Assembly (NCBI GenBank): GCA_020853975.1 | Contig: JADYXW010000077.1 | Span: 1-40,331, forward strand | Length of the DNA: 40,331 nucleotides | Reading direction: 5' to 3' | Source of the DNA: Phycisphaerales bacterium | Lineage (GTDB): Bacteria; Planctomycetota; Phycisphaerae; Phycisphaerales; UBA1924 | In this document: piece after piece, positions 17,447 through 39,084 of the stretch | How positions within the stretch are numbered: position 1 is the first letter of the stretch | How the letters are laid out: each line of letters begins with the position of its first letter | Notes under the pieces: generated by a model | What the model was told of the DNA's origin: nothing | Seen by the model: the letters and a program-made list of their open reading frames with translations, nothing else | Databases searched by the model: none | Translations under genes and position numbers: made by a program

Positions 17447-17452
17447 TACAAT
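17447..17452 (+). promoter_or_regulatory. Candidate -10 box upstream of gspG
   Basis: TACAAT (one mismatch to TATAAT) lies 22 nt before the gspG ATG at 17475, leaving room for a short leader with GGGAGG. No -35 box is evident. This could be an internal promoter giving extra major pseudopilin. Confidence 0.35.
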
Positions 17453-17474
17453 CAGGGTGTGGGAGGTCTTCTTG

Positions 17475-18716: not shown

Positions 18717-19179
18717 CCGGCGGGGGGGCGTCCTCCTTGAGGTGCTGCTTGCGCTTGTGCTTTTCGTGTCCGCAGCGATGGCGACCTTGAGTGTCGTTGA
18801 TCGACTCATCGAGAACTCGTACACGTTGGAGCAGCGCCGCATTGCGGCGGATCTGGCCAGGTCGGCGATGGCCAGGCTCGAGGCCGGACTCGCGACGCCC
18901 GAGACACTCTCCGGGCCCGTCAGACCCGAAGGAGACGACGGCGGCACCGCGGAGGTGTCCGACTGGGTGCTCGAGGTTCAGACCGAGACGTCACCCTTCC
19001 CCAACCTGACGAACGTCAGCGTCACGGCGATGCTGGCCCCGGGTGGGGACATCGAAAACCCCAAGTCATCTTTTACGCTCCGACAGCTCGTGCGCCTTGC
19101 ACGCCGGCAACCCGAAACGCTCCAGGATGATCCCCTGAGCGGCATGGCGGGGACGGGCCCTGAGGAGGCCGCTCCATGA
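18688..19179 (+). CDS. gspI: Minor pseudopilin GspI
   Basis: 163 aa from the ATG at 18688, chosen because GGAGGA lies 5 nt upstream; earlier in-frame starts (18652, 18661) lack this. The start lies 29 nt inside the end of gspH. The prepilin leader is RRGG|VLLEVLLALVLF, with Val rather than Phe after the glycine. A helix and a short beta domain follow. In known systems GspI joins GspJ and GspK to form the pseudopilus tip. Length is slightly above the usual 120-130 aa. It overlaps gspJ by 4 nt (ATGA). Confidence 0.8.
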   Translation: MPSRLRNASSRRGGVLLEVLLALVLFVSAAMATLSVVDRLIENSYTLEQRRIAADLARSAMARLEAGLATPETLSGPVRPEGDDGGTAEVSDWVLEVQTETSPFPNLTNVSVTAMLAPGGDIENPKSSFTLRQLVRLARRQPETLQDDPLSGMAGTGPEEAAP

Positions 19180-19823
19180 GGCGGCGGGCGTTCACCCTCT
19201 TTGAGACGCTCCTCGCGATCGTGCTGATCGTGGCACTTTCCGCCGCCGTCTTCGGGTTTCTGTGGACCCTTCTCCAGCGCCGGTCCGAGCTTGACACGGT
19301 GGGCACGAGGGGTGACGGGCTCGCGGCGATGTGGTCGCGTTTGGAGCGGGACCTGGCGACCACGTTCGCGGCGGACGGGGCCGGGGCGGCGGGGCTGCGC
19401 GGGAGTTCGTCGAGTTTGTTGGTCCGGGCGAGGGGAGTCGGGCTGGACCCGGGCAGGCTGGCGACCGAAGCGACGGGCAGCGAGTTCGTCTTTTCCGCGT
19501 CGGGCGGGGAACTGACGGGGCGGACCATCCCGGGTTCCGCGGCGGCGCCGGAAGTGCTCGCGACCGGTCTGGAACTGGTGAAGTTCAGGTACCACGACGG
19601 CGCCGAATGGCGGGACTCGTTCGATTCCGCTCAGGCAAGGGCCCTCCCGCTCGCGGTCGAGGTGTCCGTCTGGTTCGGGGGTGGCGCCGCCTCTCAACCG
19701 GAGGCGCTGCCCGACGACATTGATCTTGTGGGGAGCGAGGACGGCCCGACCCGACCGGCGGATCGCATCCGTGTCATCACGATCCCGGACGGCCCCGTGA
19801 GCGCGTGGAAGGAGGGAGCGTGA
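19176..19823 (+). CDS. gspJ: Minor pseudopilin GspJ
   Basis: 215 aa, overlapping gspI by ATGA and gspK by GTGA. Prepilin motif RRRA|FTLFETLLAIVLIVALSA. GspJ-type features further on: a helix with MWSRLERDLA and a strand region LVKFRYHDGAEWRDSF typical of the GspJ C-terminal beta domain. It belongs to the tip complex with GspI and GspK that starts pseudopilus assembly. Length matches the family (about 200 aa). Confidence 0.87.
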   Translation: MRRRAFTLFETLLAIVLIVALSAAVFGFLWTLLQRRSELDTVGTRGDGLAAMWSRLERDLATTFAADGAGAAGLRGSSSSLLVRARGVGLDPGRLATEATGSEFVFSASGGELTGRTIPGSAAAPEVLATGLELVKFRYHDGAEWRDSFDSAQARALPLAVEVSVWFGGGAASQPEALPDDIDLVGSEDGPTRPADRIRVITIPDGPVSAWKEGA

Positions 19824-21364
19824 ACGCGAGCCCCCGAACCCGCGGCACGGTCCTCATCATCACGCTGGTGGTGATCGCCGTCTCTGTCTTGCTCTGCAGC
19901 GCCATGGCGGTGCGCGTGGAGGCAAGGCTGGACACGGCGCGCGTGTCGATGGAGCGGGAGCACCTGCGGGCGCTGGCATGGTCCGGGCTCCAGGGGGTAC
20001 AGCAGGAGCTTGAGGCCCAGCGGGCCGCCATGCTGGAGGGCGAGCAGCCGACGCTCACCCGCGAGTGGGTGCTCTTCGACGACGGTGCGCACAAGGGTGT
20101 CGTGAGGTTGCTCGGCGGGGGGCCGAGCGGAACGACCAGCGAGATGAGCAGGCTGGACGTCAACCGTGCGGACGCCGGCATGCTCGCGAAGCTCCCGGGA
20201 GGGTCCGAGGACGTGGCATCGAGGATCCTCGCGACCCGGGGCGAGGGCGTCCAGGCTCCTGAGGAGCTGGTGAGGCCAGGGTCGATGACGATCGCGGAGT
20301 ACTACGGCCCCGGCCCGGCGGCGGAAGAGTCCGACCCGGATGCGCCGGAAGCGCCGTCAGGTCTGGGTGTGTGGATTACCTCGCTCGCGTACGACCCGAA
20401 CGTGCAGGGCGGGCTCGGGCGCGGGACAGCGTCCGCGGCGCACGCCGGGCAGTTTCGCGTGCATCGGGGAATCGGCTGGGGCAAGGAAATCGGTGACGAA
20501 CTCGCCTCGCGGCTCTCGCCGGGCGCTCTGAAGGCGGCCGAGGCTGCGCTGAAGTCCGAGGCGAGCTCGGCGGGCGAGCTGGTGCGGGCGATGATCGAGG
20601 TCGGCGCTGGGCCAGAAGATTGGGGCGAGGTGTTGGACCTCGTCACGGCGTCCGACGATCAGTTTCTCCCGGGGCGGGTCGACCTCAACCTCGCGCCTCC
20701 CGAGGTGCTCGCGTGCCTTCCCGGCATCAGCAACGAGGCGGCTCAGCGTCTTGCGGAGGTGCGCACGGGCCTGAGCGCCGACCGGCGCCGGAGCGTTTCG
20801 TGGCCCGTCGCCGAGGGCGCCCTGACTCCTGAGCAGTTCGTTCAGGCAGCGGACTGGCTGACGACTCGGAGCCTGGTGTGGCGCGTCAAGGTCGCCGCGG
20901 AAATCGGGCCCTCGACCCGGGACGACGCGGTCAGCGGAGGTGAGTGGACGCCGCGGGCGAGGCTGGTGTGGGAGGCCGTGATCGACGCGAGCTCGCCACA
21001 GGTGCGGGTGGCGTACCTTCGGGACGTGACGTTCCTCGCGGCGGCGGCATGGGGGCCGCAGCCGGACGCCGACAGCGAGTCGGAGGATGGACCTGCCCCG
21101 TCCGTGGGGGGGCGATCCGACCCTGCCGCGGAGGCGGACTCGAAACAAAATGTGCCCCCGCGAGTATTTGATATGCCGACATCGCTTGGTGCGCCCCGTT
21201 CTCTGGGGAGTCGGCCTGCGGTGGGGGGTGCATCCAGCCGTTCGCCGGACGTTGGGGTGCGCGAAGCTCCGGAGGCCGCACCCTCTGCTGGTGCTTCTCA
21301 GCGGGGCGGTGCAAAGCCGTTGCGGGATCGAAGGTCGGGTAGATGGGGGGCGAGCGGGCGCTGA
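19820..21364 (+). CDS. gspK: Minor pseudopilin GspK (tip), with unusual C-terminal tail
   Basis: 514 aa from the GTG at 19820 (AGGAGGG just upstream), which overlaps the gspJ stop. The N-terminal hydrophobic segment (TVLIITLVVIAVSVLLCSAM) replaces a classical GFTLLE prepilin motif, as is common in GspK, which lacks the +5 Glu. The periplasmic part has two helix-hairpin-helix-like segments, RLDVNRADAGMLAKLPG and VDLNLAPPEVLACLPG, as in T2SSK. Family members are about 320-350 aa. The last 100 residues here are low-complexity (Ser/Gly/Arg/Pro) with markedly different codon use. The stop overlaps the gspL start (TGATG). Confidence 0.87.
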   Translation: MNASPRTRGTVLIITLVVIAVSVLLCSAMAVRVEARLDTARVSMEREHLRALAWSGLQGVQQELEAQRAAMLEGEQPTLTREWVLFDDGAHKGVVRLLGGGPSGTTSEMSRLDVNRADAGMLAKLPGGSEDVASRILATRGEGVQAPEELVRPGSMTIAEYYGPGPAAEESDPDAPEAPSGLGVWITSLAYDPNVQGGLGRGTASAAHAGQFRVHRGIGWGKEIGDELASRLSPGALKAAEAALKSEASSAGELVRAMIEVGAGPEDWGEVLDLVTASDDQFLPGRVDLNLAPPEVLACLPGISNEAAQRLAEVRTGLSADRRRSVSWPVAEGALTPEQFVQAADWLTTRSLVWRVKVAAEIGPSTRDDAVSGGEWTPRARLVWEAVIDASSPQVRVAYLRDVTFLAAAAWGPQPDADSESEDGPAPSVGGRSDPAAEADSKQNVPPRVFDMPTSLGAPRSLGSRPAVGGASSRSPDVGVREAPEAAPSAGASQRGGAKPLRDRRSGRWGASGR

Positions 21365-22917
21365 TGGCAAAGTCCAGGGTCATCACGGCGATTGAGGTTG
21401 ACCGCTGGGGCGCGGCAATGCTCACGGGCGAGGTGTCGTCCGGCGGCGTCCGCATCCGAGGTTGGCACGTCGCGGCGAGGCCCGCGAACGTGCAACAGGG
21501 CGACGCTCCGGCGATCGGCGCGTGGCTGGCGAATGAGTTCCGTGCTCTCGGCCCCTCCCGCGGGCGCGTGGTGCTGGTGGTCCCCAGGCATGAGTGCGTA
21601 CTGAAGCACCTGACGGTGCCCTCGGCGCCCGAGGGCGCTGTTTCGGCGGAAGACCTCGCGGGGATTGTGCGGCTGCAGATGATCCGACAGTTGGCCCTGC
21701 CGCTGGAGGGCACCACCATCGACTTCGTGCCCCCACCCGCTGGCGCGGGCACGAGCGGCGCGGTGCTGGCGGCCGCCATGCCCGCGGAGAGGCTGGCGTG
21801 GTGGAACGAGGCCGCGGCCGCCGCGGGTATCAAGCCTGCGCGGCTGACGGTCGGCAGCGTTGGCGCCTCGGTGCTGCTCTCAGAGCTTCAGGAGCGACGG
21901 GGCGGCCCCGTGCTCGGCATTCGGGCGACCGCGGCGGGCGTGGAGTTCCTGGTTATCGAGTCCGGGGGGCTCAGCGCGTCGCGTGCGATCGACCTCGACC
22001 GCGACCCGTCCGAGCAGCCAGAGGGCTGGGCCACGCGAGTAGCGATGGAGGCACGCCGCACGTGGATGAGCCACGTCGGTGCGAGGGAGGTAGAGCTTGA
22101 CTCCGTCGCGGTTCTAGGCGACGGGTCGGAGGCTCGCGCTCTGGCCGAGCAAGCCGCGCAAGGCCTTGGTTGCATGCCCGAAACGGTTCGAGGACTCCAG
22201 GGGCAGGGGCTTCCGGATGGCGTGCCGGAAAGGCATCAGGGCGCCCTTGTGACGCTCCTGGGGATCCTCTTCGAGGAAGCGGCGGAGCGGCCCTCGCTCG
22301 ACTTCCTCAATCCGCGCCGGGCTCCAGACCGTGCCGCGGTCGCCCGCAAGGCGGTGCTCGTCGGCGCGCTCGGGCTCATCGTGCTGGGCAGCCTGTTCTT
22401 CGTCGTCGCCGACCAGAGTCTGAGCGGGTTGAGGCGGACGCTCACGCTCGCAAGGTCCGAGCGGGCGACGCTGGAAACCGAGTACGCGGGCTTCCTGGTG
22501 GAGCACGCTCGCACCAGCCACCTCGAAGAGTGGCGGGCATCCCGTGTGGACTGGGTGGCGCACCTTGATGGGCTGAGCCGCGTCTGGCCCACGCCCGGGT
22601 CCGCGGTGCTCGACGATCTGTCGGGCCGCGCCAACGCGAGGCCGGAGTATCTCCCCAAGAAAGGCTACCCGGACGGTCAGTGGAAGCGGCCCCTGACCGC
22701 CATATTCGATTTCTCAGGCAAGGTGAAGGACCGGGAAGTGTCGTCTGACCTGCGAGATCGCGTGCTGCGTGGCGAGGTGTACACGGTCGAGAGCCGGGGC
22801 GCGGACACCCCGGACAAGTTCTCTTTCCGCCTGACGACGACAATGCAGGCACCCACCGGTCGCCCGGCGGCGGAGGAAGCGGCGCCGGCCCCAGAGCCGA
22901 AGGGGGAGGGCCGGTGA
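21364..22917 (+). CDS. gspL: GspL-like inner-membrane protein
   Basis: 517 aa from the ATG overlapping the gspK stop. Residues about 1-290 form the cytoplasmic actin-like (PilM/GspL) domain, starting with VITAIEVDRWGAAML and containing VVLVVPRHECVLKHLTVPS. A single transmembrane helix (VLVGALGLIVLGSLFFVVA, about residues 331-349) is followed by a coiled coil and a periplasmic ferredoxin-like region, corresponding to the PilN part. The tail is Pro/Ala/Glu-rich. GspL links GspE in the cytoplasm to GspM and the pseudopilus. The sequence is divergent from proteobacterial GspL, so the call relies on architecture and position. It overlaps the next gene by ATGA/GTGA. Confidence 0.8.
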   Translation: MAKSRVITAIEVDRWGAAMLTGEVSSGGVRIRGWHVAARPANVQQGDAPAIGAWLANEFRALGPSRGRVVLVVPRHECVLKHLTVPSAPEGAVSAEDLAGIVRLQMIRQLALPLEGTTIDFVPPPAGAGTSGAVLAAAMPAERLAWWNEAAAAAGIKPARLTVGSVGASVLLSELQERRGGPVLGIRATAAGVEFLVIESGGLSASRAIDLDRDPSEQPEGWATRVAMEARRTWMSHVGAREVELDSVAVLGDGSEARALAEQAAQGLGCMPETVRGLQGQGLPDGVPERHQGALVTLLGILFEEAAERPSLDFLNPRRAPDRAAVARKAVLVGALGLIVLGSLFFVVADQSLSGLRRTLTLARSERATLETEYAGFLVEHARTSHLEEWRASRVDWVAHLDGLSRVWPTPGSAVLDDLSGRANARPEYLPKKGYPDGQWKRPLTAIFDFSGKVKDREVSSDLRDRVLRGEVYTVESRGADTPDKFSFRLTTTMQAPTGRPAAEEAAPAPEPKGEGR

Positions 22918-23924
22918 ACGCACTCCTGACCAAGCCCTGGGCGAGGATTGCGGCCGTGGCGTTGGTCGCGGCGGGAGCCTGGTGGGCGTTCCAGAAGGTC
23001 TATCTGGGGCCCCGCAGCCTGATCGAGGCGGACGTCCGCGTGGCCCAGGACGCGGTCGCAAGGCTCAAGTCCCAGTTGAGCGAAGAACGGGACCTGGCGC
23101 GGCGCCGGGCGGCGTCCGGCGCCGGCCTGCTCGGGAGCGAGCTGGATGTCGTGAGCGCCCGATTCCGCGATGGCCTGACCCGCGTCGGCAGCACCGCCGG
23201 GCTGGACAAGGTGATCGTGGAGCACGGGAAGCCCGTAGAGGTCATGAGCCCGGTGCTGGACGCGAAGGGCGTGTCCGTGGACCTCAAGCGGGCGCTCCGT
23301 CGCCAGCCGGATTTCCAGGTGCTCAGGGGCTCGATCCGGGGCACCGGGACGTTGGAGCAGGCGGTGGCGGCTGTCGGGATGCTCCAGGATCAGCCCTGGG
23401 TTCACCGGATCGACGCCTTCTCGCTCCGACCTATCGGCAAGGAGCGAGACCAGTTCGACCTGCGGGTGGACGTGGCGACGATCTATGCGCCAACGCTGGC
23501 GCAGAAGTCGGAGCAGGGCGCGCCGCAACTCACCCCTGCAAGCACCGAGCACGAGTCGACGTGGCGGGCTATCGCCTCGCGGAATCTGTTCCGGGCGCCG
23601 AGCGGGGCCCCGGGCAAGTCCCCGGCTCCGGTGATCATCGCCTCGGCGCCGGAAGGGGGGCGGGAGGCGTCGGGACCCGCACCCAGGGCGTTCGCGCCTT
23701 ATGAAGACTGGCGGCTGGCGGGCGTGGCATCCGGGCGGGGCGGGCTGAGCGCGCTCTTCGTCAACCTGCGGACGGGCGACCGCCTGACGGTGCTCAGGGG
23801 CGGGCAGGTGCTCGACGCCGTGCTGATCGACGGCTCGGGAGAGCAGGCGGTTGTGGAAATCGCGGGTGAACGGTTCGACGTGTCGGTTGGGAGCACCCTC
23901 GCCGCACGCAAGCCCAAGGGATAG
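22914..23924 (+). CDS. GspM/PilO-like and GspC/PilP-like fusion protein
   Basis: 336 aa, start overlapping the gspL stop. Short cytoplasmic N-terminus, one transmembrane helix (about residues 11-30), a coiled coil (DVRVAQDAVARLKSQLSEER), then a PilO/GspM-like periplasmic domain to about residue 200. The last part, from SRNLFRAP (about residue 222) through YEDWRLAGVASG to FVNLRTGDRL and a beta-rich end, resembles the HR domain of GspC or PilP, which contacts the N0 domain of the secretin. No separate gspC or gspM is present, so one protein may do both jobs: assembly platform and the bridge to the giant secretin. Domain calls are by pattern, not search. Confidence 0.7.
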   Translation: MNALLTKPWARIAAVALVAAGAWWAFQKVYLGPRSLIEADVRVAQDAVARLKSQLSEERDLARRRAASGAGLLGSELDVVSARFRDGLTRVGSTAGLDKVIVEHGKPVEVMSPVLDAKGVSVDLKRALRRQPDFQVLRGSIRGTGTLEQAVAAVGMLQDQPWVHRIDAFSLRPIGKERDQFDLRVDVATIYAPTLAQKSEQGAPQLTPASTEHESTWRAIASRNLFRAPSGAPGKSPAPVIIASAPEGGREASGPAPRAFAPYEDWRLAGVASGRGGLSALFVNLRTGDRLTVLRGGQVLDAVLIDGSGEQAVVEIAGERFDVSVGSTLAARKPKG

Positions 23925-24020: not shown

Positions 24021-27000
24021 ATGTCACAGCAGAGAAGCAAGCGCGTGGCCACGGCCGCGATGGTCGCGGTGGTCGGCCTGCCGGTTTCGGTGTGGGCGCA
24101 GGAGGCGGCCCCCCCGCCGCCCGTGGCCTCGCCAGCCGAGACCGGGGGAGCGCCCGCCGCAGCGCGCGCGCAGCCCCGCGATGACCTCGGGTTCAACTTC
24201 AAGGACGCGCCGGTCGACCAGGTGCTGGACGTGTTCGCGCGCGAGGGCGGGGTACCGATCATTTTCGAGGCGGCGATCCCCCAGGGCACGGTGACATTCG
24301 TCAGTTCGTCGAGATACTCCTTCACCGACGCGCTCAGCATCCTGAACCTGAACCTGGCGAGGTTCGGCGTTCATCTTCGCAGGCAGGATCAGTACCTGTA
24401 CCTCGCGACCCTGCAGGATGCGTCGAAGAAGCCGATCGCGGTGCCCGCGGACGCGGCGTCGCTCGCGCGTCTGACGCCCGACCAGATCGTCACGGTCAGC
24501 ATCCCGCTGGACAACGCACGGGTGGAGCAGGTGGCAGAGCAGGTGAAGCAGCTCGTCGGGTCATTCGGCGGGGTGCTGCCCATCCCCACGCAGAACATGC
24601 TGATCGTGGTGGATACCGCGGCGCAGGTCAAGCGCATCCGCGAGATCGTGCAGTCCATCGACGCGCGTAAGCCCGCGGACGCGTCCTTCAAACTCTTCCC
24701 TCTCAGGTACGGCCAGGCCGAGACCATCCTGAACAGCCTCAAGGGGCTCGTGGGCGAGCGGCAGAAGACGGTCATCGTCGACAAGGACGGCAGCCAGCGC
24801 ACGGTGCAGGACACGCAGGTCGCGGGGCTGAACCTGGTCGCCGATCCACGCACCAACTCCATCATCGCCGTCGGCCCGGAGGCGCGCATCCGAACCGTTG
24901 AGGAGGTCCTTGGCCTGCTCGACGTGCCCGCGACCGAGGCGGGCGAGGGGCAACTGGCCACGTTCGCGCTGGCGACGATCACCGCGGATGCGGCGGCGGC
25001 GCGGCTGACGACGCTTTTTTCGAAGGACGACCCGAAGGTCCGGCCCGTTGTGCTGGCGCTGCCGGAGGTGCTGAAGGTGACGGTGGTGGGCCCGCCCGAC
25101 AAGATCGCCCAGGCCGCGGCGGTGCTTGCCGAGATGGACCCGGCGGCGTCGCGGAGCGATGGTGGGGCCGCGGGTGAGCCCGCGAGCGTGAGGCCCGAGC
25201 GGAGGGCGGTTTCCGTCCGGCTCAAGCACCTGCCCGCGAGCGTCGTGGAGTCCATCGCGACCAGGCTGCTGACGCCCAGGCAGATGCAGTCGATGCGCAT
25301 CAGCGCCGGTCCGGACGGCAAGAGCGTGATCCTGGTCGGTCCTTCGGCGGACGTGGATGCCTACCAGCAGATGATCGCGGCGCTCGATACGCAGGACGCC
25401 CAGGAGCGTGACGTCAAGCTCGTGAAGCTCGGGCGCGAGGGCGCTGAGGCGGCGCTCAAGAAGGCCCAGGACCTGTACGCGCAGAGCGGCAAGGCCGCGA
25501 CCGATCCCGTCACCATCACCTTCGAGACCGAGTCCGGGACGGCGACGCTTCTGGGCTCTCGGGCGGCGCTCGCCGCGTTCACGCAGATTTTGTCGCAGGT
25601 CGAAGCGGCTTCGGTGGTGCAGGAGGTCCGGCGGTTCGACGTGAAGAAGACGTCGGCGGGCGTGCTCGCGGCGAGGCTGTCGCGGCTGGCGCGGCCGATG
25701 CTCACGCCCACGGACGGCTCCGCGTACACAGAGCCGGTGCTCGAGGCGATCGACGAGGCCAAGGTGCTGCTGGTGCGGGGCACACCCGCGCAGGTGGCGC
25801 TTCTGGGCGACCTTGTCGCGGAGTTGGACGCCGACGACCCGGCGCTCCGACAGCTCCGCATGATCGAGCTACGACAGGCGAAGGTGAGCGACGTGGTCGC
25901 GACCCTGGCGGACCTCGTGAAGTCCAGCCAGACGCTGCGTGGCCCGGGCGGCCCTGAGCCGGCGTTCGAGGCCATCGAGCAGACCAACACGCTGATCATC
26001 GGAGCAAGGCCGGAGCAGCTCGCGGTGCTCGAGGCGCTCGTGCGCGACCTCGACACGCGGCAGGGCGCGGAGCGCCCGCCCCTGAAGCTCTTCAGGCTGA
26101 AGTCCACGGACGCGGCGAACGTGGCGCTGGTGATCCAGAGGAGCTTTGATGCGAGGCCCGCGGAGCAACGCACACGCCAGCCCGTGTGGGTGGATTCCGA
26201 TCCGGCGACCAACACCCTCATCGTTTCCGCGCACCCGGACACGCTTCCCGAGATCGAAACGATCATCCAGGGGTTGAACGAGGCGCAGCAGATTGACGCG
26301 GAGGGGAGGGAGATCCGCATCTATCCGCTGAAGGTGGCCCGCGCGGAGGAACTGGCTCAGACCATCGACCAGATGTACCCCGAGCCCCCGATGCCGATCG
26401 ACCCGAGGACGCGCCAGCCCCGTCCGGACCTGAAGCAGCCCCGCGAGGTGGTCGTGCGGGCCGACCGCGCGACTAACTCCCTCATCGTGGATGCGCCGGC
26501 GAAGCGCATGGCAGGATTCGAGCAGCTCGTGAAGAGCCTGGACCAGCAGAAGCTGGCGGACAACCTGTCGCTGCGGACGTACAAGGTGGAGCGGGCCGAT
26601 CTTGCCTCCGTCGCGAACACCATCAGACAGCTTGTGTCAGGCGGTTCTCTGACGAGCAAAGCCAGCAACGCACCCATCACGGTCTCGACCGAGCCGGTCA
26701 GTCGCACGCTGGTCGTGAGCGGTCCAAGCGACATCTTCGAGGGCGTGGAGGAGGTGCTGAAGCGGCTGGACGGCCTGCCCCAGGCAGCGCCGACGGAAAT
26801 GAAGCTCTACGCGCTGACGGCCGCGAGGGCCGACAGGTTGATGCCGCTTGTCCAGCGCGTGCTGAGTCAGCGAGCCCGCGAGCTGCGCGACCCCAGCGGG
26901 GCGCCGTTGCCCGAGAGTGCGACGCAGGTGGAGGTGACCAGCGACGCCGCGAGCAACACGCTCGTGATCTCCGCGCCACGAGAGATCATGTCGGTCGCGG

Positions 27001-30000
27001 ACGGCATCGTGCGTGCCTTGGATCAGCAGAGCACCTCCAGTGCGCTGGAGGTCAGGGTCTTCAGGCTGAGCAAGGGCGAGGCCGCGAGCATCGCCGGAGC
27101 GCTGCGTGGCACGCTGCCCGCGCAGGACAAGCCCGGCACGAACCCGGCGACGATCACCCCGGAGCCCGCGAGCAATACGGTGGTCATCGTCGGCACGTCG
27201 GAGCAGCTCGACCGGGCGGCGAAGCTCATCGAGAGCCTGGATCAGTCGGTGGACCGTGAGGGGATGGGTGTCCGCACAATCCCGCTGAAGCACGGCCGAG
27301 CGGAGACGCTCGCCCCGGTGCTCGAGAGCGTGCTGGCACGCGAGTCTTCGCTGGACCGGATGCCGGACTGGATGCGGGCGCAGGTCATCTCCCGCCTGGG
27401 CGGCAATCCGGAGCCCCTGAAGGTCCGTGTGATCGCTGAGACGCGGCTCAACGCGCTGGTCGTCAGCGGGCCCCGCTCGCTCATGGACCTGGCGGAGGAA
27501 ATGATCGCGTCGCTGGACGTGGACCCGGGCGAGAATGCGGGAACGCGGCGCGCCATCCGCGTCGTGACGCTCGCGAACGCCGACGCGGGGCAGCTCGCGG
27601 CGAACCTGGACGCCGTGTTCAGGGACACGCAATCCCCCGAACCGCCCCCGGTGATGCGGGTGGACACATCGAGCAACTCGCTGATCCTCCGCGGCACGGA
27701 CGCGCAGCTCGAGACGGCGGAGTCACTGATCAAGTCGCTGGATGCGGCGGCGCTCGCGTCATCGCGCCAGATGCGGAGTGTTCCGCTCGACCGCAGCCGC
27801 GCGGACGCGGAGCTTATGGCGCAGACGCTGCGCCGCGTGCTTGAGCAGCAGCAGGGCATGAAGGTGGAGGTAATCTCGGCGGAGGAGCTCCTGCGGCGCA
27901 CGAAGGAGAAGACGCCTGCCGAGACCGAGAAGCCCCGCACCTGGGCGCCACCGACGTTGTGGACTCCTCACGCGGTCGCGGCGGCTGCCGTGATGGCGAT
28001 GACCGAGCCCGAGGCACCCCTCGCGCCGGAGGTTCAGCCGGCGCCCCAGGGGCAGCCGGAGAACAAGCCCGCGGAGGCGGGCCCGCCGGAGCCCGAACCG
28101 ACCGTGACGATCGCCGTTGACAAGGCGACCAACTCTCTGCTGATCGTCGGTTCGCCCCGCACCGCGGATCGGCTCGCGGCCTTGGCGATGCAGCTCCAGA
28201 GCCAGATGCCCCCCGAGCCGACGGGCGTCAGACTTGTCACGATTCCTCCTGCTAGCGATGCCGCGACGCTGGCACAGATCGTGAACCAGACCGTGGGGCA
28301 GATCGGGCGCACGTCCGCGGCGAACCCGGGGGGGCTCACGGGCCCGGTGTCCATCACGCCCGACCCGACCGGTTCCGCACTCGTGGTGCTCGCCAACGAC
28401 GCGGACTTCGTGGTCGTGGGCGAGCTCATCGGGTCGCTGACGCAGCTTGGCTCCACCGCGAAGATGGCGGTCAAGGTCTACCCGCTCGTGAACACCACGG
28501 CCCCGCGCGCGATGGCGGCGCTGCGAGACCTGTTCACCGCGACCCCCGCCGGCCAGCAGGCCAGGCGCGTGCGCGCGTGGGAGATCGAGGTGCAGGGGCC
28601 CGACGGCGCCGTGAGCGGGCGGGTCGACCCGTCGCAGATCCGCGTCATCATGGACCCTGCCGGCGCGTCGGTCATCGTCGCGGCGCCGGGTGATTCGCTG
28701 CCGGTCATCGACCGGCTCATCGAGACCGTGGACCAGAACCCGGTGACGAACCGGCTCGCGATCCACAGGTATGAGCTGAAGCACGCGAAGGCGGCGGAGG
28801 TCAGCCGCACGCTGCAGACGCTGTTTGACGCGCAGCGCCAGGGCGCGGGCGGGAACGACCTGCCGCAGGCGAGATTCATCGCGGACGACAGAACGAACAC
28901 GCTTCTGGTCACGGCCAGCCAGCCCCAGCACACGGACGTCGTGCGGCTGCTCGCGGAGGCCGACGTCTCGATGGAGTCCGGCGGCGACGAGCTCGCGATG
29001 ATCACGCTGCGGAATGCGGCCCCGTCGACTGTCCGGCAGATCGTGGACGAGATCGTGATCGGGCGAGACCCGGCGAAGAAGGATCGCGTGAGGATCTCCG
29101 CCCAGGACGGCTCAAACCTGCTGATCGTGCGGGCCTCGAAGGAGGACATCGAGCAGGTGAAGGGGGTGGTGGCGCAGGTGGACCAGGCCGAGACCGGCAC
29201 GGCCCCTGTCAGGTCGATCAAGCTCGAGCGTGCGGACGCCGGCGCCATCGCCCAGTCGCTCCAGAAGTTCTTCTCGGATCGTGCCGCGATCTCCGCCAGG
29301 CCCGGCGCCCGCGCGGCGTCGCGCGTCGCGGTGGTGGGGGACAAGCGCAGCAGCACGCTGCTTGTGGCGGCGTCGGACGACGACTTTGCCCAGGTGCAGG
29401 AGCTCGTGAAGACCTTTGACACGCCCGCGCCCACGCGCGACATGCAGTTCAAGGTGGTGCCGCTGAAGCACGCACGCGTGACGGAGGTCTTCCAGACCGT
29501 CCGCAACGTCCTGGACGAGCTGCGATGGGAGTCCGTCAACGTGTGGGGGGGCGGGGCGCCCGAGGACGATATTCAGAAGGTCTACGTCGAGGCGAACGAA
29601 CGCACGAACAGCATGCTGCTCATCGGTCAGGGCGAGGCCCTGGCCAATGCGGAGAGCGTCATCCAGACGCTCGATCAGCCCGCGACGGAGAAGTCGGCGC
29701 TCGTGATTCGCAGCGTGAAGGTTCAGTCCGCGGACCTGCGATCCCTGCAGACGGTTCTCCGCCAGGCGTTTGTCACCCCGGGGTGGCGCTCGTGGCGCGG
29801 GCCGGACCCGGACGCGGTGACGGTCGAGATCGATCGGGCCAATCGCGCGATCATTCTCGTGGGCAAGGGAGAGCGGGTCGAGGAGGCCGTCCGCTCGATC
29901 CAGCAGCTCGACAAGGGCGGGCCGGACGGCGGGCCCGGCAACCAGGTCGCGTCCATCACGCTTAGCCACGCGAGAGCGGACCGTGCCGCCAACACCCTGC

Positions 30001-33000
30001 GGCAGTTCTTCGCGGACCGCGCGCGCGCCCAGGGCGTGGACGCGGCCAGTGTGAGCGTCATGGGCTCTGCCGACGGGAACGTGATCCTGCTCTCCGCGGG
30101 CGAGGACGACATGGCGACCATCCGCGAGCTTGTGGCGCAGATCGATCAGCCCGACGGCGGGAAGGACCGTCGGATCGAGGTTATCGTCCTGAAGAACGGC
30201 GTCGCGAACGACGTGGCGAACTCGCTGCGCGCCATGTTCGCCCGAGATACGCGGGGCGACGAGCGCGTCATCATCACGCCCCAGCCCGCAACGAACTCCG
30301 TGATCATCTCTGCGCCGCAGGAGGTTTTTCCGGAGGTATCGTCGGTGCTGGCGCAGCTCGACGCGGCTCCTCGCGCCGAGGAGGCCAACATCGAGACCGT
30401 GGGGCTCACGACCGCGCGGGCCCAGGAAGTGGCGACGGCGCTCCGCACGGCGTTGCCCCCCAACGTGAAGGTCACGGTGACGCCGGTGGTCCGCTCCAAC
30501 TCCCTGCTGCTGACCGGCAGCAAGGAGGCGATCGCGATCGCGATGGAGCAGATCAAGAAGATCGATCAGGAGCCGGTGCGAAGCGGGCTGGTGTTCCGCA
30601 GGTTCCGCCTCACCGCCGCGGAGGCGAGCGAGGTGTCGTACACGGTTGAGCAGATGCTCCGTGCTCGCCCGCGCAACCCGAACGAGCCCGAGGCCGGGAT
30701 CGACTATTCCAGACAGGATAACACGCTGACGGTCTATGCCCCCGCGGACCAGATGGAGGAGATCGAGAAGATCGTCCGCGAGCTGGACCAGGCACCGCTC
30801 GAAGAGCGTGCGACGGAGTTTGTGAAACTGGAGTACGCGAGCGCGACGCAGGCGGCGGAGGCGCTCAAGGTGTTCTACGGCCGGTACGCGGCGGAGGCGG
30901 CGAGCCCCGCGGCCCGCAACGTGACCATCCTGCCGGACAAGCTCTCGAACTCGCTGGTGATCCGCGCCGACAAGTCGATGTGGGAGGGCATCCGCGCCCT
31001 GCTGACGAAGCTCGACACGCCCGAGTACGACACCACCCGCCAGCTCGCGGTCATCGCGCTGGAGCACGCCGACGCCACGAGCGTGGCGAGGGCGCTCAAC
31101 GACGGCCTGCGTGCACCGCTGGAGGAGCAGCTCCGGCAGTCCCAGGCCCGCAACGCGCGGGGCAACCAGGCCGCCCGTCCGGGCGAGCGCCCGGAGGCCA
31201 CGGTGCTGGTGGACGCGGAGGGCGTGCCGAGCGTCTCGGCCGAGACGCAGACCAACTCGCTGATCGTCTTTGCTGGCAGGCGAGAGCTGGACCGCATCCG
31301 CGACATCATCAAGCAGCTCGATGTCTCCGGCTTCGGCGACATGCCTCAACCCCGGATCATCGCGCTTGCGAACGGCAAGCCCTCGCTTGTCGCCAGCACG
31401 ATCCGGGAGATGTACCTGAACAAGCTCGAACGGCCCAACGGCCCGCGCAGCGTCATGATCGTGGGTGACGACACGAGCGGGGCGCTCATCGTCCGGGCGG
31501 ACGACGCGAAGTTCGCCCAGATCAAGGCCCTCGCGGAGACGCTGGAGCAGCAGGGCGAGGTCGGGCGCGTGCAGCCCCACGTCGTGAGGCTGCAGACCAT
31601 CGCCGCGGGCCGGATCCGCCAGACGCTGCTCTCTACGTTCACCGAGACGGCGAAGGCCCAGGGAGAGACGCTGGCGGTGGAGGTCGACCGCACGAACAAC
31701 GCGCTGGTCATCGCCTGCAGCGCCCGGCTGCTGGAGGAGATCAAGGCGGTCATCGCGGAGCTGGATGCGCCGGCGACAGGGCAGGAACCCGGCCCGGCGA
31801 TGTTGAGCCAGAACGTGACCATCGTCGACATCGTCAACAACGACCCGGCGACGATCCGCCGGATGCTCGAGGAAATGGGGTTGACCCGCCCGCAGCAGGC
31901 GGACCGGCCCGGGATCGTGAGCGAACCCGTGCAGATCAGTGTGATGGGCACGCGCCGGGCGCTCGCCATCGTCGCGGCGCCGGGTGACGGTCGCATCGTG
32001 GAGTCGCTTGTGAAGTCGTTGGACACGGCCCCGGTGGAGTCCGAGCAGAAGCTCGCCGTGGTCCCGCTGCGCACGGCCTCGGCCCGCGCGGTCGCCGCGA
32101 CCCTCACAAGCATGCTCAGGCCGACGGACGCGGCGTCCTCCGTCACCACCTCAGGCCCCGCAGGCCCGCTCGCGGAGCAGGTTCGGCGGCTGCAGCTGGT
32201 CAAGAACGGCATCGACCAGCCGCGCGACGCGGTGGACCTTACCCGGCCCATCCGTCTGATCGGCGACGACCAGACCAACACGCTGATCATCGCGTCGTCT
32301 CAGGGCAACATCGACGCCATCCGAGAGATCGTGAAACTGCTCGACACCCTCCCCATCGGCGACTCGGTGGTCATGCGGATCTTCCCGCTCGAGAACGCCT
32401 CCGCCACGAGGGTAAAGGCCGTTATCGACACGCTCTTCCAGCAGGGCGAGGCGCTCCGGCGGCTGCCCGGCACGCAGCGCCGGGGCCTGCCCCCGACGGC
32501 GACGGGCCAGGCCCTCGCCGGCGATGTGGCGATCACCGTTGACGAACGCACGAACACGATGATTGCGGCGGGGCGGGAGGAGGCCCTAGCGCTCGTGGAG
32601 GTTCTCACTAAGGAGCTTGATAGCGACGCCGCGAGCAAGTGGGTGGAGCCCCTCATCATCCCGATGAAGTACGCGGACGCGGCGGGGATGGCCCGGCGGC
32701 TTCAGGAGGTGCTCGTTCGGGGTACTGCGGTGACTCCCGAGGCCATGGGCCTCCAGCGACAGTTCGGGCGGCTCCGCATGGTCAATCAGGGTCGCTCGAT
32801 CAGTGCGCCCGAGCCCCAGGCCAGCCTGAGCCCGGGCATCGAGAAGAGCGGGCCTGAAGAGCCTGTCTCCGCGGGCATCATCGAGTCGGACCTCTTCGCG
32901 CCCGTCACGGGGCTTGTGATCTCGTCGGACGAGAACCTGAACGCGCTCATCGTCATCGGCAGCCCGGCCAACCTGGCGGTTGTCAAGGCCATGGTCGAAC

Positions 33001-35621
33001 AGCTTGACGTCGAGGCCGCCTCTGCCGCCAACCAGGTGCGAATCTTCCCGCTGCGGTTTGCCGCGGCGGACCGGGTGACCGCAGTACTCCGCGACATCTT
33101 CGCCCAGCGCCGCCAGGCCGGGAGTGACCGCCCCGAGGACGCGCTGATCATCAGCACCGACATCCGCACGAACGCGATCATTGTCTCATCGAGCCAGAAG
33201 AGCTACGCCATCGTGGAAGGGCTGCTCAGGACGCTCGACGGCGAGCGCACCGCGTACTCGGTGGGCATTCACGTGCTACCGGTGGAGGGCGCGGATGTCA
33301 GGCAGCTCGCCCCGCGCATCGAGCGCCTGATGCGCGAGCGGCTCCAGGCCGCGGCCCAGGCCGGGTCTGTCCGCAACCCGATGGACGCGTTCACGATCGA
33401 GGCCGAGCCCTCCAGCAACCTGCTGATCGTCGCCTGCAGCCAGGAGAACCTGCAGGTCGTTCGGGAGCTGGTCTCGGCGCTCACAGAGGACGTGGCGAGG
33501 CTGGAAGCGGGCAGCAGGACGGACATCATCCAGTTCACCCGTGCCCGCGCGACGGAGGCCGCACAGTCCATCGAGCAGGCCTATGTGGAGCGTGAGAACC
33601 AGCGCCGTGGGCAGAACGCCGTGCGCGTGGTGGCGAACGAGCGGCTGAACTCGCTGATCGTGACCGGCACGGAGGCGGACCTGGTCGAGATCCGCTCACT
33701 GGCCCGCAAGGTAGACTCCGCGGAGGTCACGCAGCGCCAGCAGATCAAGTCCATCGAGCTGCGCAGCGCGAACGCGGGCGAGGTGGTGAGGCTGGTGGAG
33801 AACGTTCTGGCAGGGCGGCCCGTGGGCGGCAGCAGGGGCATCGCCGCACGGCAGGCCACGCGCCTGCAGTTCCTCCGCGACAACATGCGGGGCGACCTCA
33901 AGAACTGGGGTCAACCCGCCACCGAAGCGGAGATCGACGGCGCGCTCCGCGACCAGGTGACCCTTACCGCCGACGCACGCACGAACGCGGTGTGGGTCAC
34001 GGCCCCCGAGTCCCTTGCCGGCCTGATCTCGGAGATGATCGAGGACATCGAGCAGTCCAGCGCCGGGCAGCGCAAGATCGAGAAGTTCCGGCTGCTGAAC
34101 GCGGACGCCAACCGCATGCGCGATCTGCTCCGCGACGTCTTCAGCCTGCGTCAGCAGGGCGATGCCCTCGTCCTCGTGCCCGCCCGCACCCAGGCGGAGG
34201 GCGAGGACCAGCCCCCGACGGACGCGGTGACCCCCGTCCCGGACGAGCGGCAGCAGCTCGCCATCGCGGTGGACTCGCGCACGAACACGCTCATCGTCTC
34301 CGGCACCCCGGACTACCTCGAACTCGTCCGCAAGGTGGTGACCGAGCTTGACTCCATCCCCGCCAACGAGCGTGAGCGGCGGGTCTATCACCTCCGCAAC
34401 GCCAAGGCGGGGGAGATCGAGACGACGCTCAAGGCATACTTCCAGGGAGAGGCGGACAAGGCCCGCCTCACGCTGGGGGCCGAGCGTGCGGGCTCGCTCC
34501 TCCAGAAGCTGGAAGAGGAAGTGACCGTGGTGGGGGACCTGTCGAGCAACAAGCTCGTGATCTCTACCTCGCCCAAGTACATGGAATCCGTGCTGAAGAT
34601 CGTCGAGGAGCTCGACGCGTCGCCGCCGCAGGTGATGATCCAGGTGCTGCTCGCGGAGGTCACGATCGACGCCTCGGACCAGTGGGGCATGGACGTGAAC
34701 GTGGGGCCGTTCGGGGGCGAGGCCTACCGGGTGGGTTCCACCGCCGCGGGTGTTGGCGTGGCGACGGCGCTTGGCGTTCCCAACCTCTCGGTGTCGTCGT
34801 CGGACTTCGGGCTGCTGATCCGCGCGCTCGAGGCGCAGGGCAAGCTGGAGGTGCTGAGCAACCCGCAGGTGCTTGCGGACAACAACAAGGAGGCGACGAT
34901 CAGCGTTGTTGACGAGATCGGCGTTGCGGGCCGCAGCCAGTTCGGAGGCGTCAACGGCACGTCGGTCATCTCCGAGGTCGAACGCATCCCCGCGGGCATC
35001 ATCCTGAAGGTCACGCCCTCCATCAGTTCAGACGGCTACGTGCGGATGGAAGTCTCCCCGGAGATTTCCGCCCTCACCAGCCGCACGACGCAGATCAACC
35101 GTGACCAAACGGCGCCGATCATCTCCAAGCGCACCGTGGACACGGTCGTCACGGTCAAGGATGGACAGAGTGTCGTCATCGGCGGGCTCATCCAGACCAG
35201 CGACGAGGAGCGCAACAGCAAGGTGCCCATCATTGGTGACATCCCGATCATCGGGCTGCCGTTCCGCACCAAGAAGAACGAGGTCAACAAGACCGAGCTG
35301 CTGGTCATTCTCACTCCGCGGGTGATCCCGGGCGGGGCAGCAAGCCCCGAGGGCCTGATCCGCGACGTGACCGAGCAAACCATCGACCGGCTTGAAGACC
35401 CCACCCGCGTGGAGGACTACCTCGAACGAATCCGGCTCGAGATCGAAGAGACCAATCGGCGCAACGGCATCACGAGCCCGGCCGTGGTCTCTCCCGCCTC
35501 GGAGCCGCTGCAGCCCTCGCGGTCCAGGCCTGAGTCGGCGAGCGATTCGGGGCCCACGGGTGCACCGCAGGCCCCGGCCACTCAGACGACAGACCCTGGT
35601 CGAATGGACCCACCCCGATGA
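24021..35621 (+). CDS. gspD: Giant type II secretin (GspD-like) with about 40 N-domain repeats
   Basis: 3866 aa in one uninterrupted frame; GGAGG lies 6 nt before the ATG. Order: signal peptide (1-26, ending VWAQ); N0-like domain (about 55-140, LGFNFKDAPVDQVLDVFARE); about 40 N1-type modules of 65-130 residues (about 155-3535); the secretin pore domain (about 3538-3771) with VPIIGDIPIIGLPF (V3735 on) and ELLVILTPRVIP; then a helical, Pro/Ser-rich tail of about 95 residues that could hold a pilotin-binding segment. Classical GspD is about 650-700 aa with N0-N3. The protein forms the outer-membrane gate of type II secretion; extra modules would lengthen the periplasmic channel. It is last but one in the gsp run, overlapping a lipoprotein gene. 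No internal stop or frameshift is visible. Confidence 0.95.
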   Translation: MSQQRSKRVATAAMVAVVGLPVSVWAQEAAPPPPVASPAETGGAPAAARAQPRDDLGFNFKDAPVDQVLDVFAREGGVPIIFEAAIPQGTVTFVSSSRYSFTDALSILNLNLARFGVHLRRQDQYLYLATLQDASKKPIAVPADAASLARLTPDQIVTVSIPLDNARVEQVAEQVKQLVGSFGGVLPIPTQNMLIVVDTAAQVKRIREIVQSIDARKPADASFKLFPLRYGQAETILNSLKGLVGERQKTVIVDKDGSQRTVQDTQVAGLNLVADPRTNSIIAVGPEARIRTVEEVLGLLDVPATEAGEGQLATFALATITADAAAARLTTLFSKDDPKVRPVVLALPEVLKVTVVGPPDKIAQAAAVLAEMDPAASRSDGGAAGEPASVRPERRAVSVRLKHLPASVVESIATRLLTPRQMQSMRISAGPDGKSVILVGPSADVDAYQQMIAALDTQDAQERDVKLVKLGREGAEAALKKAQDLYAQSGKAATDPVTITFETESGTATLLGSRAALAAFTQILSQVEAASVVQEVRRFDVKKTSAGVLAARLSRLARPMLTPTDGSAYTEPVLEAIDEAKVLLVRGTPAQVALLGDLVAELDADDPALRQLRMIELRQAKVSDVVATLADLVKSSQTLRGPGGPEPAFEAIEQTNTLIIGARPEQLAVLEALVRDLDTRQGAERPPLKLFRLKSTDAANVALVIQRSFDARPAEQRTRQPVWVDSDPATNTLIVSAHPDTLPEIETIIQGLNEAQQIDAEGREIRIYPLKVARAEELAQTIDQMYPEPPMPIDPRTRQPRPDLKQPREVVVRADRATNSLIVDAPAKRMAGFEQLVKSLDQQKLADNLSLRTYKVERADLASVANTIRQLVSGGSLTSKASNAPITVSTEPVSRTLVVSGPSDIFEGVEEVLKRLDGLPQAAPTEMKLYALTAARADRLMPLVQRVLSQRARELRDPSGAPLPESATQVEVTSDAASNTLVISAPREIMSVADGIVRALDQQSTSSALEVRVFRLSKGEAASIAGALRGTLPAQDKPGTNPATITPEPASNTVVIVGTSEQLDRAAKLIESLDQSVDREGMGVRTIPLKHGRAETLAPVLESVLARESSLDRMPDWMRAQVISRLGGNPEPLKVRVIAETRLNALVVSGPRSLMDLAEEMIASLDVDPGENAGTRRAIRVVTLANADAGQLAANLDAVFRDTQSPEPPPVMRVDTSSNSLILRGTDAQLETAESLIKSLDAAALASSRQMRSVPLDRSRADAELMAQTLRRVLEQQQGMKVEVISAEELLRRTKEKTPAETEKPRTWAPPTLWTPHAVAAAAVMAMTEPEAPLAPEVQPAPQGQPENKPAEAGPPEPEPTVTIAVDKATNSLLIVGSPRTADRLAALAMQLQSQMPPEPTGVRLVTIPPASDAATLAQIVNQTVGQIGRTSAANPGGLTGPVSITPDPTGSALVVLANDADFVVVGELIGSLTQLGSTAKMAVKVYPLVNTTAPRAMAALRDLFTATPAGQQARRVRAWEIEVQGPDGAVSGRVDPSQIRVIMDPAGASVIVAAPGDSLPVIDRLIETVDQNPVTNRLAIHRYELKHAKAAEVSRTLQTLFDAQRQGAGGNDLPQARFIADDRTNTLLVTASQPQHTDVVRLLAEADVSMESGGDELAMITLRNAAPSTVRQIVDEIVIGRDPAKKDRVRISAQDGSNLLIVRASKEDIEQVKGVVAQVDQAETGTAPVRSIKLERADAGAIAQSLQKFFSDRAAISARPGARAASRVAVVGDKRSSTLLVAASDDDFAQVQELVKTFDTPAPTRDMQFKVVPLKHARVTEVFQTVRNVLDELRWESVNVWGGGAPEDDIQKVYVEANERTNSMLLIGQGEALANAESVIQTLDQPATEKSALVIRSVKVQSADLRSLQTVLRQAFVTPGWRSWRGPDPDAVTVEIDRANRAIILVGKGERVEEAVRSIQQLDKGGPDGGPGNQVASITLSHARADRAANTLRQFFADRARAQGVDAASVSVMGSADGNVILLSAGEDDMATIRELVAQIDQPDGGKDRRIEVIVLKNGVANDVANSLRAMFARDTRGDERVIITPQPATNSVIISAPQEVFPEVSSVLAQLDAAPRAEEANIETVGLTTARAQEVATALRTALPPNVKVTVTPVVRSNSLLLTGSKEAIAIAMEQIKKIDQEPVRSGLVFRRFRLTAAEASEVSYTVEQMLRARPRNPNEPEAGIDYSRQDNTLTVYAPADQMEEIEKIVRELDQAPLEERATEFVKLEYASATQAAEALKVFYGRYAAEAASPAARNVTILPDKLSNSLVIRADKSMWEGIRALLTKLDTPEYDTTRQLAVIALEHADATSVARALNDGLRAPLEEQLRQSQARNARGNQAARPGERPEATVLVDAEGVPSVSAETQTNSLIVFAGRRELDRIRDIIKQLDVSGFGDMPQPRIIALANGKPSLVASTIREMYLNKLERPNGPRSVMIVGDDTSGALIVRADDAKFAQIKALAETLEQQGEVGRVQPHVVRLQTIAAGRIRQTLLSTFTETAKAQGETLAVEVDRTNNALVIACSARLLEEIKAVIAELDAPATGQEPGPAMLSQNVTIVDIVNNDPATIRRMLEEMGLTRPQQADRPGIVSEPVQISVMGTRRALAIVAAPGDGRIVESLVKSLDTAPVESEQKLAVVPLRTASARAVAATLTSMLRPTDAASSVTTSGPAGPLAEQVRRLQLVKNGIDQPRDAVDLTRPIRLIGDDQTNTLIIASSQGNIDAIREIVKLLDTLPIGDSVVMRIFPLENASATRVKAVIDTLFQQGEALRRLPGTQRRGLPPTATGQALAGDVAITVDERTNTMIAAGREEALALVEVLTKELDSDAASKWVEPLIIPMKYADAAGMARRLQEVLVRGTAVTPEAMGLQRQFGRLRMVNQGRSISAPEPQASLSPGIEKSGPEEPVSAGIIESDLFAPVTGLVISSDENLNALIVIGSPANLAVVKAMVEQLDVEAASAANQVRIFPLRFAAADRVTAVLRDIFAQRRQAGSDRPEDALIISTDIRTNAIIVSSSQKSYAIVEGLLRTLDGERTAYSVGIHVLPVEGADVRQLAPRIERLMRERLQAAAQAGSVRNPMDAFTIEAEPSSNLLIVACSQENLQVVRELVSALTEDVARLEAGSRTDIIQFTRARATEAAQSIEQAYVERENQRRGQNAVRVVANERLNSLIVTGTEADLVEIRSLARKVDSAEVTQRQQIKSIELRSANAGEVVRLVENVLAGRPVGGSRGIAARQATRLQFLRDNMRGDLKNWGQPATEAEIDGALRDQVTLTADARTNAVWVTAPESLAGLISEMIEDIEQSSAGQRKIEKFRLLNADANRMRDLLRDVFSLRQQGDALVLVPARTQAEGEDQPPTDAVTPVPDERQQLAIAVDSRTNTLIVSGTPDYLELVRKVVTELDSIPANERERRVYHLRNAKAGEIETTLKAYFQGEADKARLTLGAERAGSLLQKLEEEVTVVGDLSSNKLVISTSPKYMESVLKIVEELDASPPQVMIQVLLAEVTIDASDQWGMDVNVGPFGGEAYRVGSTAAGVGVATALGVPNLSVSSSDFGLLIRALEAQGKLEVLSNPQVLADNNKEATISVVDEIGVAGRSQFGGVNGTSVISEVERIPAGIILKVTPSISSDGYVRMEVSPEISALTSRTTQINRDQTAPIISKRTVDTVVTVKDGQSVVIGGLIQTSDEERNSKVPIIGDIPIIGLPFRTKKNEVNKTELLVILTPRVIPGGAASPEGLIRDVTEQTIDRLEDPTRVEDYLERIRLEIEETNRRNGITSPAVVSPASEPLQPSRSRPESASDSGPTGAPQAPATQTTDPGRMDPPR
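24486..34630 (+). repeat. Array of about 40 secretin N1-type modules encoded in gspD
   Basis: Each module starts with a strand such as VRVFPLKxA, a helix, a variable loop, then a strand-turn-strand anchor (D-x-x-TNTLIVSA type) and a helix ending in LD. Anchors include Q191 (QNMLIVVD), T278 (TNSIIAVG), T655 (TNTLIIGA), T730 (TNTLIVSA) and T818 (TNSLIVDA), and others near 28894, 29604, 30290, 30498, 30950, 31250, 31695, 32276, 32551, 32938, 33170, 33648, 34280 and 34550. I counted 40 by hand; modules 3-6, 16, 17 and 31 are divergent, so the number may shift by two or so. Copies differ strongly at DNA level, so this is an old expansion. Long loops occur near 27876-28100, 32732-32910 and 33815-33955. 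Confidence 0.85.
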
Positions 35622-36103
35622 GATGGACCCTGATTGTGCCTCTCGGCCTCGCGCTTGTCGGCTGCGCGGGTACCCCCAAGCCGAAGCCCGCACCACCTCC
35701 TCCTGCGGGTACCCAGCCCACCGACCTCCTCCCCTTTGTGGGCTTCATGGAGGACTCCGACAGCAACGGCTATCGGGACACCATGGTCCTCACGCTCCTG
35801 ATGTTCGCCCGCAACCACGCGGAGACGTCGGTCTACGCGGAGGGAACGCTGGACCTGAGGCTTGTCGCAAAGAACGGCAAGGTCATCCGCGAGTGGAAGC
35901 TGCCGCCCGATGTCGTCGCGGGGCTCGCCAAAAAGATGCCCGCCGGACCCACCTACTTCATCCGGCTGAGCCTGCTCGACGACCCGGCGGGCGACAAGAC
36001 GGACGAAGCTCTTGCTGATCTCCAGATTGCCTTCTCGCAGGGAGAGACCCCACCCATCCGGACGACGGCGACGGGCATAACTGTGGGACGGGTAGGCAGA
36101 TAG
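35618..36103 (+). CDS. Small lipoprotein coupled to gspD, candidate pilotin
   Basis: 161 aa; its ATG overlaps the gspD stop (ATGA), so translation is probably coupled. Lipoprotein signal: MRWTLIVPLGLALVGC with the lipobox LVGC (Cys16), then a Pro/Lys-rich spacer and a beta-rich domain of about 110 residues (GFMEDSDSNGYRDTMVLTLL, split by a variable region from LRLVAKNGKVIREWKLP). I do not recognise it as a known GspS or AspS pilotin, which are helical or mixed domains. Position and anchoring make a secretin-targeting or assembly role reasonable, but that is inference. Other options are an unrelated outer-membrane lipoprotein. Confidence 0.75.
   Translation: MRWTLIVPLGLALVGCAGTPKPKPAPPPPAGTQPTDLLPFVGFMEDSDSNGYRDTMVLTLLMFARNHAETSVYAEGTLDLRLVAKNGKVIREWKLPPDVVAGLAKKMPAGPTYFIRLSLLDDPAGDKTDEALADLQIAFSQGETPPIRTTATGITVGRVGR

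Positions 36104-36249: not shown

Positions 36250-39084
<2,835 letters not shown>

Follow-up and report, generated by a model that had tools for sequence, protein, structure and literature searches.

The window analyzed in this study, namely a 40,331-nt stretch (positions 1 to 40,331 of contig JADYXW010000077.1, assembly GCA_020853975.1) of a Phycisphaerales bacterium, was found to harbor a giant gspD-type secretin gene accompanied by genes of a type II secretion operon and by a lipoprotein gene. Their positions in the window are summarized in Table 1.

Table 1. Features of the giant secretin gene and its operon in the 40,331-nt window
Feature	Position	Strand	Remarks
GspE-type ATPase	12839..14518	- (opposite gspD)	T2SSE E 2.3e-127
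GspF	16207..17400	+	T2SSF E 1.6e-49
GspG, major pseudopilin	17397..17987	+	T2SSG E 4.5e-24
Pseudopilin, GspH position	17991..18716	+	N_methyl E 1.5e-4, just over cut-off
Pseudopilin-like gene, GspI position	18652..19179	+	without Pfam match; position conserved
GspJ-like pseudopilin	19176..19823	+	T2SSJ E 1.2e-4 and N_methyl E 0.0062, both below cut-off
GspK-like	19805..21364	+	HHH_3 over cut-off; T2SSK and NF037980 below
GspL, PilM-like domain	21343..22917	+	PilM E 1.4e-17
Inner-membrane protein, GspM/GspC-like	22914..23924	+	336 aa; C-terminal domain HR-like (weak, by eye)
Giant gspD-type secretin gene	24021..35621	+	3866 aa; Pfam 35 Secretin_N and 1 Secretin; TIGR02517
Predicted signal peptide, aa 1-26	24021..24098	+	judged from sequence by eye
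N0 domain, about aa 53-131	24177..24413	+	
Array of 40 N1-type (beta-alpha-beta-beta-alpha) modules, aa 160-3533	24498..34619	+	HMM; fold predicted for the first six and last five
Module 15, interrupted by a long insert, aa 1251-1393	27771..28199	+	
Ala-rich hydrophobic segment within the module-15 insert, aa 1315-1327	27963..28001	+	
Last module (N3 position), aa 3454-3533	34380..34619	+	
Secretin pore domain	34824..35327	+	
Lipoprotein; candidate pilotin or outer-membrane partner	35618..36103	+	ATG overlaps gspD stop by four bases (ATGA)

Pfam recognizes Secretin_N 35 times in the giant protein and a complete Secretin domain once. A profile HMM built from the giant's own modules recognized 41 stretches, of which aa 1251-1278 and aa 1325-1393 constitute one module split by an insert, giving a count of 40 modules; the same profile detected zero modules in 50 shuffled copies and one reversed copy of the protein. 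An N0 domain, as in the type II secretin GspD, was present at the N-terminus, and the double-barrel secretin domain (PF00263) at the C-terminus. AF2 monomer models of aa 50-612 and of the last five modules with the pore, which cover modules 1-6 and 36-40, gave GspD-like folds for N0, the modules, and the pore, with a low pTM for one model, a middling one for the other, and weak confidence in the packing between modules. The sequence-only reading had proposed a real giant planctomycete secretin consisting of N0, about 40 N1-type modules of the Secretin_N fold, and a complete pore; this proposal was borne out by the Pfam stretches, the own-module HMM, the NCBIfam profiles, and the models at both ends of the array (modules 1-6 and 36-40).

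Regarding the class of the secretin, the NCBIfam equivalog for GspD, TIGR02517, scored 1077 bits against a cut-off of 351, a value that is inflated because it is summed over 18 stretches; the best single stretch aligned aa 3313-3770 of the giant with positions 124-591 of the 600 in the profile. The profiles for PilQ (TIGR02515; 356 bits against a cut-off of 284, summed over 4 stretches) and SctC (TIGR02516; 344 bits against 238) were passed as well, the PilQ score lying far under that of GspD. An AMIN domain ahead of N0, which is a trait of PilQ, gave no match at E 0.01 in the giant, whose N0 starts at about aa 53. The usual GspD carries three N1-type modules (N1-N3) between N0 and the pore, whereas the giant carries 40, and this difference defines it as a variant.

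The surrounding genes were examined for the same question. The assignments of GspE, GspF, and GspG were clear, that of GspL came via PilM homology, GspJ and GspK stayed under the curated cut-offs, and the genes in the GspH and GspI positions were recognized by N_methyl or position only. With E up to 1, PilM_2 matched 16 of the 19 members of the GspL alignment, the best at 6.3e-9. For the GspM/GspC-like protein, Pfam T2SSB gave weak matches with E up to 1 in 4 of 20 members, the best at 0.004, and nothing credible was found when its alignment was compared with solved structures. With respect to the pilM-N-O-P context that would point to PilQ, the neighbours of the giant are of the F, G, J, and K types, yet its L protein is PilM-like. 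Near the operon lies a glycosyltransferase family 9 (heptosyltransferase) gene (11794-12834, minus strand), consistent with an outer membrane, and the neighbours at 878-6918 and 36250-39084 include a TgpA/transglutaminase-like protein, RNase Y, and the 2-oxoglutarate dehydrogenase E1.

The same arrangement was also found with an ordinary GspD. GspD proteins of 778-818 aa with 2-3 modules are encoded in L163, L164, and L165, which belong to one sister family, and in L170, which belongs to another; the operon order there, with not every gene detected in each locus, was the same as that of the giant, namely E-F-G, then where detected J, K, or L, and then D. The pores of these ordinary proteins were 37-40% identical to that of the giant, and both sister families also contain one giant-bearing genome each. 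Since the same operon order carries an ordinary GspD in the sister families, the giant is an expanded GspD. Rather than being a stand-alone oddity, it serves as the gspD of a type II secretion operon and has hundreds of giant relatives. With the GspD of known type II systems (ETEC/Vibrio GspD, Pseudomonas XcpQ), it shares N0, N1-type modules, the pore, and an operon with E, F, G, J, K, and L, and it differs from them in the 40 modules that take the place of N1-N3 and in the overlapping lipoprotein gene without a Pfam match. Four further secretins of ordinary size (frames of 878, 752, 867, and 1135 aa) are encoded in the same genome. This genome is small (3.1 Mb), and its 13 T2SSE-type ATPase matches over the cut-off together with five secretins amount to many pilus or secretion machines.

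The lipoprotein gene that begins at the gspD stop was detected by tblastn (E 1e-4) behind gspD in 25 of the 31 relatives' loci; no match was obtained in L035, L036, L043, L046, L066, and L071, and some of these six loci end soon after gspD. The lipobox Cys was invariant in all 13 of the 25 lipoproteins that were aligned. The same stop overlap and a lipobox were also seen in L166, L168, and L169, the last of which is recorded as Verrucomicrobia. Among the four ordinary-GspD loci inspected, L164 has a lipoprotein-like gene 14 bases behind gspD, and none was seen in L163, L165, and L170. The product of the overlapping gene is likely a pilotin that would help the pore in the outer membrane.

As the window is one contig of a 110-contig genome, an artefact of assembly or annotation had to be considered. 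Its probability is close to nil, given that homologues occur in many independent assemblies, including two single-contig genomes and one two-contig genome with 48, 47, and 48 modules in frames of 4634, 4856, and 5073 aa, that the longest exact DNA repeat in the gene is 22 bases (14-17 in ten codon-shuffled copies), and that purifying selection acts along the gene. The selection was strong over the entire length, with a dN/dS of 0.040 against a relative that is 95% identical and values of 0.009-0.108 in each 200-codon bin, and no frame break was found along the gene in this comparison. A collapsed or chimeric assembly, which would have refuted the sequence-only reading, was accordingly rejected.

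Secretin frames of at least 3000 aa were found in at least 30 of 61 related genomes, and four more of the 61 contained split or contig-cut secretin frames of 1519-2431 aa. Among database proteins of about 1800-6900 aa, 612, 921, and 801 matched the three queries used (1830, 1799, and 2428 candidates scored, the sets overlapping), and the 353 database relatives listed carry 20-61 modules with a median of 43. In a sample of 392 genomes of the phylum, in each of which the best four candidates were scored, giants were found in 14 (one split), all of them within the order of the window, where 31 genomes had been sampled. The giants scored 547-673 bits and the next candidate, with a 781-aa frame, 363 bits, leaving a clean gap. 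By the same scoring of the best four candidates, 4 of the 10 sampled genomes of the giant's own family were without a giant, and the sister families include members both with and without one.

Near relatives of the giant are recorded mainly as Phycisphaerales and Phycisphaerae. In a scan of named contigs confined to the best 80 of 560 relatives, whose titles name Phycisphaerales, other Planctomycetota, and Verrucomicrobiota, 75 had ten or more modules in the stretch covered, two (L161 and L162) were ordinary, and three were cut too short to judge. Fifteen genomes titled Verrucomicrobiota or kin carry frames of 2646-4311 aa. In a sample of 288 genomes of the phylum to which the genome of L130 belongs (recorded as Verrucomicrobia; best few candidates per genome scored), the only giant was that of the L130 genome itself, and the trait is therefore patchy in Verrucomicrobia despite the 15 titled genomes. 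Wherever the name tells, the named records of giants are metagenome-assembled. Two records, L083 (QWIH01000003.1, titled Leptolyngbya sp. PLA1) and L095 (RHKP01000005.1, titled Cyanobacteria bacterium CYA), have names that look wrong, because they carry Phycisphaerales-type giant secretins that are 98% and 58% identical to that of the window over the C-terminal part, respectively. Among the papers listed in searches of an open-access library, no description of a giant secretin was found; the parts of a study concerned with the secretins of an anammox planctomycete name them without sizes (PMC3422733). That two phyla of the PVC superphylum share a conserved class of secretins with 20-61 modules shows that the module number of a secretin can freely change in evolution by as much as an order of magnitude.

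The modules within the giant are 26% identical on average and 46% at most, and an origin by recent tandem duplication was rejected on these values and on the short longest repeat. In comparison with 14 other giants, 12 gave 32-40 reciprocal pairs for the 40 modules, nearly all in order, with mean best module identities of 40-67% (96% for L044); all 40 modules were reciprocal with those of L044, L052, L041, L045, and L043. Differences in length fell mainly after modules 6, 11, and 35. Six further giants gave 24-31 module pairs with the array of the window, fully or almost fully collinear. Judged from these sequence relationships, the array is old.

The two exceptions among the 14 giants, L035 and L071, gave only 11 and 13 reciprocal pairs. 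Although both come from the order of the window, their arrays were collinear with that of the verrucomicrobial L130 (31 pairs for L071 and 21 for L035) and not with that of the window, which may reflect either transfer or very old paralogy. The arrays recorded as verrucomicrobial were collinear among themselves (20-41 pairs with L130), whereas against the array of the window they gave 7-9 collinear pairs with a random maximum of 8-10; L107 gave 11 pairs with L130 at a random maximum of 9. As the verrucomicrobial-type arrays are barely collinear with that of the window, at least two array lineages exist, having either a common origin or a history of transfer.

According to parts of PMC8563730, N0, one N3-type module, and the pore are common to all secretins, which vary in how many additional N domains they carry; pIV of phage f1, with N0, one N3-type module, and the pore, is the minimal case, and the giant is the opposite extreme. 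The family average given in part of PMC4827864 is 555 +/- 151 aa, against 3866 aa here. Additional N rings likewise lengthen the secretin PilQ of Thermus thermophilus, a bacterium whose periplasm is wide, according to excerpts of PMC5745081 and PMC4463427. This PilQ serves a type IV pilus and DNA uptake with six rings, whereas the giant would form about 41 and belongs to a type II secretion operon.

Secretin N domains form stacked rings, each roughly 2.5-3 nm high. We infer that copies of the giant probably assemble into about 41 such rings and thereby form a conduit for type II secretion through the periplasm, with a length on the order of 100 nm or more. Parts of the sources give 96 Å for the pore plus one N ring of phage pIV (PMC8563730) and 350 Å, about 35 nm, for the pore plus six rings of Thermus PilQ (PMC5745081, PMC4463427); by this difference each ring accounts for at most about 5 nm, and forty further rings would extend over roughly 100-200 nm. 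In Thermus, the six PilQ rings are reported to span most of the wide periplasm (excerpt of PMC5745081), which is given as about 70 nm (excerpt of PMC4463427), and the planctomycete periplasm can be greatly enlarged, as stated in part of PMC5394234.

In the mechanism that we propose, N0 would dock at the inner membrane with GspL and with the short GspM/C-like protein, the pore would lie in the outer membrane, aided by the product of the overlapping lipoprotein gene, and the module array would fill the entire distance between them. The type II secretion system exports folded proteins across the outer membrane; here, the folded substrates would enter near N0, and the GspG pseudopilus would push them through or into the tube. 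Secretion could thereby work where the inner membrane has withdrawn far from the outer one, as in planctomycete invaginations. The reach would come from GspD alone, since the inner-membrane partner has only 336 aa and versions of the operon with an ordinary GspD exist. The giant makes it testable how bacteria with a deeply invaginated inner membrane keep their secretion machines connected between two distant membranes, and controls are already at hand in the collinear arrays, the sister operons of ordinary size, and the naturally split genes.

Several observations count against such a conduit, namely the patchy occurrence of giants in the sister families, their own family, and Verrucomicrobia, the weakly matched HR-like domain of the N0 partner, and the weak confidence of the monomer models in the packing between modules. 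In addition, parts of two sources state that the surface pits of Planctopirus occur only where both membranes touch (PMC5394234) and that the periplasmic share of the cell volume in Gemmata is similar to that in E. coli (PMC3660258). An envelope 100 nm wide everywhere is unlikely in view of the four ordinary-size secretins in the same genome, and no fixed distance is obvious, because the module number varies so widely among the 353 listed relatives.

The coexistence with ordinary secretins and the variable module number would also suit a long vestibule, in which the stacked rings form a tube that hangs or bends in the periplasm, stores or sorts substrates or guards against leakage, and makes no membrane-to-membrane contact. 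The role of N0, however, is docking to the inner-membrane GspC, and N0 aligned in all 27 giants given to alignment A1 (of 31; L042, L059, L064, and L069 (near-duplicate) were left out; alignment A2 comprised 30 of the 31, without L069). The inner-membrane genes are likewise kept beside the giant gene, and we regard the vestibule as quite unlikely. Still less can be said for modules that form no rings and serve as a flexible arm binding peptidoglycan, polysaccharide, or substrate. KH-like folds are common binding folds, and KH families indeed match the giant in Pfam, KH_SLS1_1 (47 bits) over the cut-off for the whole protein; the spacing, the fold, and the order-specific conservation of the modules nevertheless match secretin N domains, making this reading very improbable compared with a conduit of stacked rings.

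Within the stacked-ring conduit, module 15 deserves separate consideration. The pattern of its insert was located in 127 fused and 7 split-like proteins among the 353 database proteins. The hydrophobic segment was present in 118 of the 127 fused proteins; among the remaining long inserts of these proteins, 4 of 195 contained one. This comparison is not length-matched, the module-15 inserts being longer than the controls. Shuffling within the insert supported hydrophobic clustering in 98 of the 127. The flanking residues were net basic before the segment in 99 and acidic after it in 126 of these proteins, and an A-x-A-like site occurred in 96. When the whole array was scanned for its most hydrophobic windows, module 15 did not stand out; it did so only when inserts were compared. 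In the four verrucomicrobial giants inspected, the hydrophobic segment was absent.

In L108/L059 (one record) and in L111, the gene itself is divided into two within module 15. Where both genes were seen, the first ends after the first half of module 15, and the second consists of a signal-peptide-like start followed by the second half. Seven database proteins (P0313, P0319, P0320, P0321, P0327, P0337, and P0341) start at this split with a signal-peptide-like sequence; the seven split-like proteins found by the insert pattern include P0282, perhaps a partial record, and omit P0337. Module 15, whose hydrophobic insert is conserved, probably acts as a seam in the stack or as its internal gate, and the insert may be a gate loop, a fusion scar, or an internal cut site.

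These natural splits and the signal-like features of the insert would fit a conduit made of two chains, one with N0 and 14.5 modules and the other with 25.5 modules and the pore, which join inside ring 15; two genes would supply them in one group, and where the genes are fused, export would involve cleavage at the internal signal-peptide-like segment. Against this, the region preceding the insert is expected to be periplasmic already, which is at odds with a normally oriented internal signal. The shorter control inserts, the limit of the shuffling support to 98 proteins, and the verrucomicrobial giants without the segment also speak against two chains, a fusion scar or a gate loop being the alternative, and we consider a two-chain conduit unlikely. 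Tentatively, and short of an even chance, the conduit in planctomycetes and some Verrucomicrobia could be a gated tube of more than 100 nm in two sections, whose 41 rings would span the invaginated periplasm; the sections, encoded by two genes in one group, would join at the split ring 15, the hydrophobic segments there being arranged in a ring as an internal gate or septum. Such a tube would be, to our knowledge, the longest secretin conduit known and, if true, an adaptation to a distant inner membrane.

A second split, located elsewhere in the gene, was observed in L156 and L158, where a gap of 157 bases is followed by a second gene with a signal-like start of its own. The borders in L108/L059, L111, and L156/L158 look like true gene borders. 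Two overlapping frame changes in L060 (G051) and an in-frame TAG in L151 are likely sequence errors and were not counted as splits, and in L114 the giant is found in two frames.
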